The notes under the pieces: model-generated
Databases searched by the model: none
Told to the model about the DNA's origin: nothing
Seen by the model: only the letters and a program-made list of their open reading frames with translations
Origin: an uncultured Pelagibacteraceae bacterium
Lineage (GTDB): Bacteria > Pseudomonadota > Alphaproteobacteria > Pelagibacterales > Pelagibacteraceae
Assembly: GCA_902522325.1 (NCBI GenBank)
Contig: CABYVA010000006.1
Coordinates: forward strand, 1 to 48,714
Direction of reading: 5' to 3'
DNA: 48,714 nucleotides
Position numbers and translations under genes: made by a program
Shown here: piece by piece, positions 14,713-22,925 of the stretch
Position numbering within the stretch: the stretch's first letter is position 1
Layout of the letters: every line of letters begins with the position of its first letter

Positions 14713-14759
14713 AAACAGGAACATTTTAAATTAATATATTTTAAACTGTGAGTAAATTT

Positions 14760-15115
14760 GCCAGATAAACTATAAGCCGGGTTCTGTCTTTTAAACCTAT
14801 CATTTGTCTAGACTTAAGATCACTCTTAAGCTCAAGCAACCAACCCTGATGACTAGCCAAAGACTGCTTTTAGTTTTTCAACAATGTCATCTCTACTTGG
14901 TTTTGCTCCCAGTGGGGTTTTCCATGCGCTAATTGTTACCAATTTAGCCGGTGTGCTCTTACCACACCTTTTCACCCTTGCCTTGATTAGGCGGTTTATT
15001 TTCTGTGGCACTATCCCTGGGGTTTCCCCCGCCAGGCATTACCTGGCACTGTGTCTTCGTAGAGCCCGGACTTTCCTCTTTAAAATTAATTAAAGCGATA
15101 AGTCATTTATCTGGC
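14760..15115 (-). ncRNA. rnpB: RNase P RNA (bacterial type A)
   Basis: This is the catalytic RNA of RNase P, which trims the 5' ends of precursor tRNAs. On the minus strand, GAGGAAAGTCCGGGCTC near the 5' end and ACAGAACCCGGCTTA near the 3' end are the two universally conserved P4-forming regions. The internal AGGGTGAAAAGGTG and GGTAAGAGCACACCGG blocks also match the bacterial consensus. The ends were set by the terminal P1 helix, GCCAGATAAA pairing with TTTATCTGGC, which is a perfect 10 bp. The length of 356 nt is in the normal range. Open frames across this stretch are spurious. Confidence 0.96.
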
Positions 15116-17355: not shown

Positions 17356-17432
17356 TGGTGGGCCCGCCAGGACTCGAACCTGGGACCAATACATTATGAG
17401 TGTACTGCTCTAACCAACTGAGCTACAGGCCC
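17356..17432 (-). tRNA. tRNA with anticodon CAT (Met or Ile2)
   Basis: A 77-nt cloverleaf reads on the minus strand. The 7-bp acceptor stem GGGCCTG/CGGGCCC has one G-T pair. TAGCTCAGTTGG gives the D arm, CTCATAA is the anticodon loop with CAT, GGTTCGAGTCC gives the T arm, and the CCA tail is encoded. The first pair G-C rules out a typical initiator tRNA. A CAT anticodon may be elongator methionine or, if the C is converted to lysidine by TilS, isoleucine for AUA codons. The TTGGTC variable region resembles E. coli ileX, but I cannot settle it by reading. It lies 35 bp past the O-antigen ligase gene on the same strand. Confidence 0.95.
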
Positions 17433-18764: not shown

Positions 18765-20624
18765 TTAACTTTCCAAGAAACTCTTTAACTGCTTAGATCT
18801 GCTTGGATGTTTTAATTTTCGTAAGGCCTTTGCTTCAATTTGTCTAATTCTTTCCCTGGTGACTGAAAACTGCAATCCTACTTCTTCTAAAGTATGATCG
18901 GTATTCATTCCAACCCCAAATCTCATACGTAAAACTCTTTCTTCTCTTGGAGTAAGTGTTGATAAAATTTTTGTGGTAGCTTCACTTAAATTAGATTTAA
19001 TCGCTTGTTCTAAAGGTGCTAAAGCTTTGGTATCTTCAATGAAATCTCCTAAGCTACTATCTTCTTCATCTCCAACTGGTTTTTCCAAAGAAACTGGTTC
19101 TTTTGAAATTTTTAAAACTTTTCTAACTTTTTCCAAAGGCATTCTAAGTTTTTTTGCCAATTCCTCTGGAGTAGCTTCTCTTCCAAACTCGCTTAAGATT
19201 AATCTTTGCGTTCTTACAATTTTGTTTATTGTCTCTATCATGTGAACTGGAATTCTGATAGTTCTAGCTTGATCTGCTATTGATCTAGTGATTGCCTGTC
19301 TAATCCACCATGTTGCGTAAGTTGAAAATTTATATCCTCTTCTATATTCAAATTTATCAACTGCTTTCATTAAACCAATATTACCTTCTTGGATTAAATC
19401 TAAAAACTGCAATCCTCTATTTGTATATTTTTTTGCAATTGATATTACCAATCTTAAATTGGCTTCTACCATTTCTTTTTTTGCAATTCTTGATTCTTTT
19501 TCTCCTTTTTGTACTCTGCTAACTAACTTTTTATAGTCAGTTACAGATATTCCAAGTTTATGACTAATCTCAATTAATCTTTCTCTAATATTTTTAAATT
19601 CATCTTTATTTTTCTGGAAAAATTGTTTCCACGTTAAGTTTGTATCTAAAAATGTTTTTAGTTTCGGATTAATTTCATTTCCAACATAAAATTTTATAAA
19701 TTCGTTTCTGGATATTTTATTGTTTAAAGCGAGTCTTAAGAGATTCCCTTCTAGTGAAATAATTTTTTTATTTTCAATATAATGTTTCTGAACCAATTCC
19801 TCTAAAACAGAAGGTGATAACTGCAATGATTCTATAGACTTTAATATTCCTTCAACTATTTTTTTATAACCCTTTTCTTTAGCTGGTGAAAAGCTATTTG
19901 AATTTAAAATACATTCAAGCTTCTCTTTTTGGTATTTTAATAGTTTATTATATTCTTTTGTTAATGTCTTCACAGTAAGTAAAACTTTTGGTCTAATTTC
20001 TGTTTCCATTGCTGCAAGTGTTGGGTTAAATTCATCTTCGTCAACGTTTGTCTCTTGACTTTCTTCTTTGTTGATTTCTTCAGTTTTATTTTTTTCATTA
20101 CTAAGATCTGGAGATTTCTTTTGTTTAGCACTTTGCCCAGTGTTTTCATCTTCCATATAATTAGTATCGATATCAATAATCTCTCTAACTAATATTTCAT
20201 TGTTTTGAAGCTTCTGATCCCACTCAAAAAATTGTTGCGCGGTTATTGGACTTTGCGATAGGGCGTTAAGCATAACATCTTTCCCCGCTTCTATTCTTTT
20301 CGCAATTGCTATTTCACCTTCTCTTGATAAAAGCTCCACACCCCCCATTTCTCTTAAATACATTCTTATAGGGTCGTCACTTTTCTCAACAGTTTTTCCC
20401 TCTTCTTTAGATGAGTTATCTTTTTTTCTTAAAACTTTAAAATCTGATTTCTTTTCGACCAATTCAATTTTTTCGTCTAAAATATGTATGAAGGCCTGCT
20501 CAAGATTTGAATTACTAAGATTCCTTTTCCCTAAGGATTTATTTAGTTCTTCGTGAGTAATAAATCCTCTATGGATTCCTCTACCCATCAACCTAGCAAA
20601 TGATTTTGTTATTATTCTTTCCAC
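18765..20624 (-). CDS. rpoD: RNA polymerase primary sigma factor RpoD
   Basis: This is the housekeeping sigma-70 factor, which directs RNA polymerase to promoters. The start codon is GTG at 20624. The 619 residues include a short region 1.1, region 1.2 ([16 protein letters not shown], about 88-103), a charged non-conserved insert, and region 2 with [12 protein letters not shown] and [15 protein letters not shown] for -10 recognition and melting. Region 4.2 near the C terminus ([17 protein letters not shown]) recognises the -35 box. The gene follows dnaG after 64 bp, as in the classical macromolecular synthesis operon. Confidence 0.98.
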
Positions 20625-20688: not shown

Positions 20689-22464
20689 TTAATTGAGATT
20701 TTGTAATTTTTTTAACTCTCTAATTTCGTTGAAAGTATTTTCGTTTAAATCTTTAGAAAATTTTGATTCTAATTCTTCTATCCTAAGTTCAAGTTCATAA
20801 TTTTTTAGATCTCTAATAATCTCCTCTAATAAATCAAATATTTTACTATGATCATGTTTGTTCATATTTAAAATGTGTTTAATAGATGCAAACTTAAATA
20901 TTTTTTCAATCAATTGAGCATCTATTTGAAGGTCGTTTATAGTAAATTTTTCGTTTTCTTTTAATTTAGATAAAATTGCTTCAAAAATTAATCTATTTTC
21001 ATCTGTAAATAATTTTATTTTTTCAATTAAATAAATATTTTTTTGAAAAACTTCTAAATTATTCAATATCAAATATAAAAATGAAAACTCCTTAATTTCA
21101 ATTTGGGTAACTGATTTAGTGTCGTTAAAATGTTTTTGAGTTGATTTTAAAGATTTAGCTGTTTTTGTGAAAAATTTTTTATTTTTATAATTTGTATGTG
21201 GAGTTAAAGAAGAAATTCTATCTAAAAAATATTCTAAGACATATTTTTTAATAAATTTATCTTTAATAGTGCTTGCAATTTCTCTTAATCTTTTTTCAAA
21301 TATGGCCATTGAAGATGGGTTGTTTTCTGTTTGTTTTTTATAGTGCTCAAATATAAATTGATGAATAGAAATTTTATTTTCTTTGGTAAAATTTACAAAA
21401 TAACTCTTACCATTTTTATTTACAAAACTATCTGGATCTTCCTTATTTGGTAAAAATAAAAAAGAAATTTGTTTTTCGGGTTGCAATTCTTTTATAGAAT
21501 TTTCGGCTGCTCTTAATGCTGCTTTGTATCCACTCTCATCCCCATCAAAACAAATAATAATATCTTCGAAAAACTGATTTAGAATTATGATTTGTTTTTC
21601 GGTTAATGAAGTACCAAGATTTGCTACAGCATTTTCAATTCCATTTTTGTTAAGTCCAATCACATCCATATAACCTTCAACAAGATATATATGATCTATT
21701 TTGTTTGAAAACTTTCTAGCACGATCTAAATTATATAAATTTGATCCTTTTTTAAAAAAAGTTGTCTCTGGTGAATTAATATATTTTGCTAAATAATTTT
21801 TATCTTCAATTATCCTTCCCCCTAAAGCGATGGGGTCTCCTGAAATATTATTTATAGGAAAAATAATTCTATCTCTAAATCTTTCGACATAAATATTTTT
21901 TTTATCATCGAAATAAAAAAGGCCAGTTTCAATAAGAAATTTTTCATTATAATTCTTTTTTAGTTCTTCAAATATATTTGTGTTTTTTTCTACAAATCCA
22001 ATTTTAAATACCTCAACTTCTTCTTTAGATAAATTTCTATTTTTCAAATATTCTTTTGCGAAAGATAGATTTTGATTTTTTAAAAGATTTGAATGGCAAA
22101 ATTCTACATATTTTTTATAAATAGCAGAGTAAGTTTGCCAATTTTTTTCTCTTTCAATATCTTGCTTAGAAAAAGTATATGGTCTCATACCCGCTATATT
22201 TGCAAGATATTTTACTGCTTCTCCGAATTTCAAATTTTGTGTTTTCATTACAAAGTCAAAAATATTTCCATGTTCAGAAGTACTAAAGCAATGATAAAAA
22301 CCTTTTTCATCATTTACTGTAAAAGATGGCGTCTTTTCAGTTTTAAAAGGAGATAAGCCAATAAATTCCTTACCTCTTTTTTTTAAGTTGACAGTTTTTG
22401 ATACGATGTTTGAAACTTTTAGCCTTGTTTTAATTTCATCTAAATATTCCTTAGGATATTTCAT
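20689..22464 (-). CDS. dnaG: DNA primase DnaG
   Basis: DnaG makes RNA primers for DNA replication. The 591-residue protein has the N-terminal primase domain, a TOPRIM catalytic core (YLVEGYMDVIGL near 257, with FDGDESGYKAA near 304-314) and a C-terminal DnaB-interaction region. The N-terminal zinc-binding domain is present in outline (SPFKTEKTPSFTVNDEKGF around 38-56), but only Cys59 of the four usual CHCC ligands remains. The others read Ser38, Lys41 and Thr62. Start and yqeY stop overlap as ATGA, so the genes are probably coupled. Confidence 0.96.
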   Translation of the reverse strand: MKYPKEYLDEIKTRLKVSNIVSKTVNLKKRGKEFIGLSPFKTEKTPSFTVNDEKGFYHCFSTSEHGNIFDFVMKTQNLKFGEAVKYLANIAGMRPYTFSKQDIEREKNWQTYSAIYKKYVEFCHSNLLKNQNLSFAKEYLKNRNLSKEEVEVFKIGFVEKNTNIFEELKKNYNEKFLIETGLFYFDDKKNIYVERFRDRIIFPINNISGDPIALGGRIIEDKNYLAKYINSPETTFFKKGSNLYNLDRARKFSNKIDHIYLVEGYMDVIGLNKNGIENAVANLGTSLTEKQIIILNQFFEDIIICFDGDESGYKAALRAAENSIKELQPEKQISFLFLPNKEDPDSFVNKNGKSYFVNFTKENKISIHQFIFEHYKKQTENNPSSMAIFEKRLREIASTIKDKFIKKYVLEYFLDRISSLTPHTNYKNKKFFTKTAKSLKSTQKHFNDTKSVTQIEIKEFSFLYLILNNLEVFQKNIYLIEKIKLFTDENRLIFEAILSKLKENEKFTINDLQIDAQLIEKIFKFASIKHILNMNKHDHSKIFDLLEEIIRDLKNYELELRIEELESKFSKDLNENTFNEIRELKKLQNLN

Positions 22465-22925
22465 TTTTTATTTAAAACTTCTTTCAAATACGTGCCTGCT
22501 TTCGAAAAGTCTAATGTATCTGAATAATCCTTTTTTAATACACCCATTACTTTTCCCATATCTTTAATTGAAGATGCATTTAATTTTTTTATTGTTTGAT
22601 TACAAATATTTTTTGTCTCTTCCTCACTTAATTGTTTTGGTAAAAAAGAAGATATTATTTCATGTTCTTTTTTTTCAACTGCCAACAGGTCCTGTCTATT
22701 ATTTTTTTTATATATTTCGATCGATTCGTCTCTTTGTTTTATCATTTTTTTTAATAATTTTTTAATATCTTCGTCATTAGTCTCCTTTTTATTTGAGCCC
22801 GATCTGTTAGCTATATCTAAGTCCTTAATTGAGGATAAAATTAACCTATAGGTTGATATTTCTAGTTTATCCTTAGATTTTAGAGAATTATTATAATTAT
22901 TTTCTATTTTTTCTTTTAAAGACAT
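22461..22925 (-). CDS. yqeY: GatB/YqeY domain protein
   Basis: This 154-residue protein matches the YqeY family: an N-terminal helical part starting MSLKEKIENN with a conserved stretch LRLILSSIKD-like (here YRLILSSIKDLD, about 26-37), a central IKQRDESIEIYKKNNRQDL block, and the C-terminal tail-domain pattern LPKQLSEEE and DMGKVMGVLKK. The family shares a domain with the GatB subunit of the tRNA-dependent amidotransferase. Its exact role is not established. Position just before dnaG is common in alphaproteobacteria. It diverges from carA across a 116-bp gap. Confidence 0.93.
   Translation of the reverse strand: MSLKEKIENNYNNSLKSKDKLEISTYRLILSSIKDLDIANRSGSNKKETNDEDIKKLLKKMIKQRDESIEIYKKNNRQDLLAVEKKEHEIISSFLPKQLSEEETKNICNQTIKKLNASSIKDMGKVMGVLKKDYSDTLDFSKAGTYLKEVLNKK

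Follow-up and report, generated by a model that had tools for sequence, protein, structure and literature searches.

A variant of the replicative primase DnaG without canonical zinc ligands is common in Alphaproteobacteria

Results

The primase gene and its neighbourhood

The window (the whole stretch of DNA that was analysed, 48,714 nucleotides from an uncultured Pelagibacteraceae bacterium) carries a dnaG gene that is best explained as an ordinary single-copy replicative primase, belonging to a zinc-less variant with many carriers among Alphaproteobacteria. The gene encodes a DNA primase of 591 residues (20689..22464; this and all other window features given here lie on the minus strand) and was the sole match to PF01807, the DnaG zinc-domain family, in an assembly that is 87% complete. 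Its open reading frame scored 392.7 bits against the dnaG equivalog TIGR01391 at a cut-off of 283.6 and passed the Pfam models for the DnaG zinc domain, the DnaG core and TOPRIM. PF01807 matched residues 4–93 at 101.9 bits, far above its cut-off of 24.9, in agreement with the original prediction that the N-terminal zinc domain is recognisable. This nominally zinc-binding domain, delimited by PF01807 and the predicted fold, spans residues 1–95 (22180..22464) and lacks the canonical zinc ligands. The TOPRIM catalytic region E263...D307-G-D309...D343-P-D345 (21430..21678) was located by alignment and by reading of the DNA. Its residues E263, D307, D309, D343 and D345, which we take to be the catalytic acids of TOPRIM, were invariant in 43 aligned DnaGs and intact in the window DNA.

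The genes on either side of dnaG were identified by Pfam matches. A yqeY-like gene lies directly upstream (22461..22925), and a relative of it was found near dnaG, on either strand, in 59 of the 80 named loci among the matches listed. Directly downstream lies rpoD (18765..20624), which was used as an independent marker gene; it lay on the dnaG strand in 64 of the 80 named loci among the matches listed and in all 20 further chosen loci. Trees of both the dnaG core and rpoD grouped the window with named Pelagibacteraceae. The window also contains a class A RNase P RNA (14757–15114) and a tRNA-Met (17356–17432).

Ligand columns and the zinc-less signature

Upon alignment with the Aquifex DnaG 2au3 and with 213 alphaproteobacterial domains, classed as zinc binders because they carry CHCC, the four ligand columns were found to be occupied by Ser38, Lys41, Cys59 and Thr62. 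These are the residues that the original prediction had read in place of Cys-His-Cys-Cys, and both the alignments and direct reading of the DNA confirmed them. The first Cys ligand is replaced by Ser38 (22351..22353), the His ligand by Lys41 (22342..22344) and the fourth ligand, a Cys, by Thr62 (22279..22281), which leaves Cys59 (22288..22290) as the single canonical ligand retained. A sequencing slip or chance is ruled out as the origin of this state, since it is shared by two further genomes of the same family (G207 and G098) and by four named Pelagibacteraceae loci, the latter having been retrieved with a zinc-less query.

Comparison of 137 zinc-less with the 213 CHCC domains showed that five columns switch almost completely. 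Column 38 changes from C to S in 100% of the zinc-less domains, column 41 from H to N, T, K, Q and others, and column 62 from C to S or T. Two columns outside the ligand set change along with these: column 61 from G to S or A, represented in the window by Ser61 (22282..22284; alignment and DNA), and column 64 mostly from A (77% in CHCC) to K or E (88% in zinc-less), represented by Glu64 (22273..22275; alignment). Of the 137 zinc-less domains, 71% have C in column 59 and 29% have D. In the class draw the signature of zinc-less DnaG reads S; N, K, T, Q, S or G; C or D; S or T. The loss is all-or-none, as each of the 368 aligned rows was either CHCC or S-x-[CD]-[STA] and none of the 368 kept two or three ligands. 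A column in which Cys or His had been gained as a replacement was sought across the same 137 and 213 domains and none was found; other nearby residues as substitute ligands, an outcome that would have overturned the original prediction, were thus looked for and are missing among Cys and His.

Distribution in Alphaproteobacteria and beyond

The class draw comprised 289 alphaproteobacterial genomes, the window's included, 277 of which had a PF01807 match. The first reading covered 225 genomes besides that of the window and gave 37 zinc-less and 188 CHCC; it left out three genomes with the gene truncated or interrupted by an insert, and a further 48 with a match, which in nearly all of them scored high against the family. 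A later reading of five of these 48 added one zinc-less and four CHCC genomes, bringing the zinc-less state to 38 of 230 readable genomes, or roughly a sixth. In the first set it was seen in 20 of 138 family codes, one of them mixed. With class members of the phylum draw added, the numbers rose to 71 zinc-less and 199 CHCC genomes and to 25 of 147 family codes, a sample biased in that the added genomes were mostly chosen by similarity to zinc-less domains; 24 of the 25 family codes had no CHCC member in the sample. The original prediction had expressed doubt as to how common the state is in related lineages, and alignment across the class showed it to be common in other families.

A scan of named organisms with a zinc-less query returned at least 584 relatives. 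Of 80 examined, 66 were zinc-less and 14 CHCC, a proportion that is not a frequency given that the loci were retrieved with a zinc-less query. Among the matches listed, zinc-less loci were found in Hyphomicrobium, Methylobacterium, Microvirga, Bradyrhizobium, Afipia, Ancylobacter, Devosia, Rhodoplanes, Caulobacter, Brevundimonas, Robiginitomaculum, Parvibaculum, Rhodospirillaceae and Pelagibacteraceae, and metagenome-assembled genomes (MAGs) from bog and palsa carried the state as well. Going by names and titles, fresh water, soil and plants are among the habitats of these carriers. Beyond the class, the zinc-less alignment was matched to 398 phylum genomes and the 20 best non-class hits were taken; two regions (L422 and L423) were incomplete and dropped, and 18 of 18 readable ones were CHCC.

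Several loci stood apart. Two MAG contigs titled Candidatus Marinimicrobia (L233 and L245) placed their rpoD among Rhodospirillaceae in the 85-row tree, the adjoining dnaG was 71–75% identical to the alphaproteobacterial query, and the bins are probably mislabelled or contaminated. In L114 (G087) and L157 (G228) the dnaG zinc domain holds an in-frame insert of about 330 residues that begins with Cys and ends with an Asn abutting the third zinc-ligand Cys (N|CFGCG). Judged by eye, it looks like an intein, in which case the third zinc-ligand Cys would be the +1 splicing residue.

The state also occurs in phages. On viral contigs, 80 loci kept of 144 retrieved with a zinc-less query comprised 57 of S type, 20 CHCC and three gapped. 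Caulobacter phage Sansa has a zinc-less DnaG of its own, complete in length (L546, 1801–3657), and its host genus is zinc-less too. Zinc-less versions were further found in Flavobacterium phages laban6-1 and 6H and in Cellulophaga phage Ingeline_1, so the state extends to phages of Bacteroidota. Many Bacteroidota chromosomes probably carry it as well.

No description of a zinc-less DnaG was found in the literature searched, a paper outside that reach being possible, and none is reported in the accessible parts of PMC7231222, PMC6163395, PMC10218098, PMC7824862 and PMC3189940.

Copy number, conservation and predicted fold

Of the 37 zinc-less genomes in the first reading, 36 had a single PF01807 gene, so that as a rule there is no zinc-binding backup copy. 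The remaining genome, G105, had three matches, as did G169; the extra copies in these two may be mobile-element primases. A zinc-binding second DnaG of the kind used in Zur-type swaps was sought in the window's 87% complete assembly, and one PF01807 match only was found there. The single gene in 36 of 37 genomes also led to rejection of a zinc-starvation paralogue as a candidate.

Pairs of zinc-less DnaGs diverged no more within the domain than did CHCC pairs at equal core divergence in seven of seven bins, the pairs in these bins not being independent; at a core p of 0.55–0.60, for example, domain divergence was 0.385 in zinc-less and 0.452 in CHCC pairs. AlphaFold2 models reached a mean pLDDT of 90.7 for residues 1–105 and 91.9 for the full-length protein. 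The best structural match of the domain model was the zinc domain of B. stearothermophilus DnaG, 1d0q (Z 16.3, rmsd 1.3, 99 residues aligned), followed by Aquifex 2au3 (Z 14.5) and then by human Twinkle at Z 7.2, a level also reachable by chance. The predicted fold would be a normal zinc-ribbon fold. AlphaFold2 has a tendency to produce the metal-bound fold regardless of metal, so the model is no proof of folding free of zinc. The original prediction that the metal had been lost and the fold kept holds as far as sequence can tell: the ligands are gone, no column replaces them, the domain is conserved and the fold is confidently predicted. From this we infer that the domain folds free of zinc.

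Recurrence of the state on gene trees

Before tree counts, the cut locus L085, the insert-split L114 and L157, the second copies L158 and L159, repeat genome reads and cores shorter than 250 residues were dropped, as was the window itself (L001/L394; restored once as 'win'). On a FastTree tree of 368 rows, built from the dnaG core without the domain, 20 state changes were required, of which at least 10 were forced by starred branches. A mixture-model tree of 70 rows, made up of 34 zinc-less and 32 CHCC rows, both sets chosen for nearness and spread, with four outgroup rows, required 13 changes with at least three forced; only six of its 67 branches were starred and deep support was weak. A single clade of the 34 zinc-less rows was rejected at p-AU 0.0008, a test that grouped rows by trait on a quick tree with long AT-rich branches in the set. 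The rpoD tree of 85 rows, which stands for an independent gene, gave nine changes with at least five forced. Its rows were 65 named ones, with CHCC in 12, and 20 added loci, ten per state, mostly from neighbouring positions in the core tree and added because the named CHCC rows were too few. The counts themselves are blind to gain versus loss. Loss is the likely direction, as all 18 non-class rows were CHCC.

Discussion

The results point, in our judgement with good probability, to a chromosomal primase in which the domain that recognises the template folds and functions although no zinc sits at the canonical site. According to the mechanism that we propose, the N-terminal ribbon would fold without zinc, a polar set (Ser; Asn, Lys, Thr or Gln; Cys or Asp; Ser or Thr) would substitute for the ligand cluster, and the coupled changes at residues 61 and 64 may help to hold the ribbon. 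The conserved surface around K.GRE, PF..EKTPSF and K.F.H.F..G.HG would still be offered to single-stranded template, which the domain would then pass to the RNA-polymerase/TOPRIM core. Zinc-dependent and zinc-independent forms would constitute two alternative stable states between which lineages have switched several times. In PMC6163395 zinc is said to sense DNA and to stabilise the motif, and in PMC7231222 the T7 zinc domain is said to carry the template to the polymerase domain; zinc-less enzymes must accomplish such sensing and carrying otherwise. Against this explanation, a metal might in principle be held by H58, C59 and H65, which are still present, AlphaFold2 draws a metal-bound fold whatever the metal, deep tree support is weak with AT-rich rows possibly attracting each other, and part of the recurrence could be domain exchange as opposed to independent loss.

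Three other accounts of the domain were weighed. It is quite unlikely that the domain still binds metal via another set, such as Cys59 together with His58, His65, acidic residues or water. Cys or His does occupy columns 58, 65 and 59 in 88%, 88% and 71% of zinc-less domains, but the first two hold Cys or His in 83% and 75% of CHCC domains also and are therefore not new, 29% of the zinc-less domains have Asp at residue 59, and no column gains Cys or His. Even less credence is given, indeed hardly any, to the domain being a functionless relic like the N-terminal domain of metazoan Twinkle. Twinkle has lost priming along with three of the four zinc-domain cysteines, as stated in PMC7231222, and the human protein is the next structural match, though possibly by chance. 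The zinc-less domain, however, evolves no faster than in CHCC DnaGs, the TOPRIM catalytic acids are intact and this is the sole DnaG found in the assembly, where chromosomal priming needs one. The original prediction suggested a zinc-sparing primase, perhaps suited to an ocean poor in zinc; such an adaptation to scarce dissolved zinc has become very unlikely. In its favour, the nearest named relatives of the window are Pelagibacteraceae, and bL36 of the window genome (L464, G000:C8) is without cysteine; a cysteine-free bL36 would be the zinc-free form. A search for the DnaJ zinc centre gave nothing beyond a weak match in UvrA, an absence that supports no conclusion as the assembly is incomplete (87%). 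The LigA zinc family fell below cut-off in the window genome (20.4 versus 25.8 bits) and was unmatched in at least four genomes with zinc-less DnaG (G207, G098, G030 and G118). Yet the window genome and 30 of 30 zinc-less-DnaG genomes, these four included, encode LigA with four cysteines, so that the weak family scores do not reflect loss of the motif; the sample was 36 of the 72 zinc-less genomes then known, that of the window included, with all 36 matched and 30 loci read. LigA was accordingly rejected as a second marker of zinc loss. In six zinc-less-DnaG genomes (L498, L510, L513, L514, L520 and L522) its zinc motif opens with C-x-C in place of C-x2-C. UvrA and ClpX of the window genome also keep their cysteines, and the zinc-less state, which recurs on both the dnaG and rpoD trees, is shared by soil, plant and freshwater genera (Bradyrhizobium, Methylobacterium, Caulobacter, Hyphomicrobium, Afipia and Devosia) and by the bog and palsa MAGs. 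On the 70-row tree the window's clade contains four more family codes that have it, which makes the state older than Pelagibacteraceae. Zinc-less DnaG looks, from these sequences, like a stable zinc-free version of the enzyme and not like a special adaptation to the sea.

The recurrence itself allows of another origin, namely one loss or a few, passed on between lineages by exchange of the dnaG 5' end, possibly via phage copies, instead of parallel loss. We regard this as unlikely, although the domain stripped of six columns (the five switching ones and 59) needs 11 changes where size-matched samples of the core need 20–28 (12 random samples) or 21–27 (seven contiguous samples). Residues 1–33, which lie away from the site, similarly need 18 as against 27–44 in six samples, and the full-length zinc-less DnaG of phage Sansa would offer a vehicle. 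Coupled adaptation inside the domain would, however, yield the same excess. The gap is small in the 85-row set (domain six, core nine, rpoD eight), residues 67–95 alone need 29 changes versus 33–45 and thus do little better than the core, and no donor-recipient pair was identified. The domain either co-adapts or was exchanged as a unit, and the two are inseparable here. A broader and likewise doubtful form of the idea is that of two interchangeable N-terminal primase domains, the zinc-less one being a self-sufficient module with five to six positions changed as a block and no surviving intermediates in the sample, and travelling as a cassette that lineages and phages re-acquired or handed on. 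If true, the cassette might bring another start-site preference or free priming from control by zinc or oxidation.

Under the preferred reading of a primase that works without zinc at the canonical site, zinc-less and zinc-binding relatives form a natural experiment that would allow a direct test of what the metal does in template recognition, a question called unresolved in a review. About a sixth of the class-draw genomes (38/230), with Caulobacter members among the named carriers, appear from their sequences to prime without the canonical ligands. Such bacteria would presumably escape primase inhibitors directed at the zinc site.

Relative to canonical DnaGs with a CHC2 zinc ribbon (1d0q and 2au3), the window protein has the same domain order, predicted fold, TOPRIM acids and family scores but lacks three of the four ligands and carries the coupled changes at 61 and 64. 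The phage primases of Sansa, laban6-1, 6H and Ingeline_1 follow the same pattern as the cellular ones, S-P-F-[T/V] ... [C/D]-F-S-S; the three from Bacteroidota phages are distant (48–58% to the L340 query), and a common origin with the alphaproteobacterial ones is not implied. Zinc-binding proteins with a ligand-less form are known from Cys-minus ribosomal proteins and Zur-controlled zinc-free paralogues. Zinc-less DnaG resembles these in being a ligand-less form of a zinc-binding protein but differs from the Zur paralogues in that its genomes (36/37) offer no zinc-binding partner gene to alternate with. Metazoan Twinkle, as described in PMC7231222, has an N-terminal domain that is likewise derived from a zinc domain and devoid of three of the four cysteines. 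Primase activity has been lost in Twinkle, whereas the window protein conserves its TOPRIM acids and is the sole DnaG found in its assembly.
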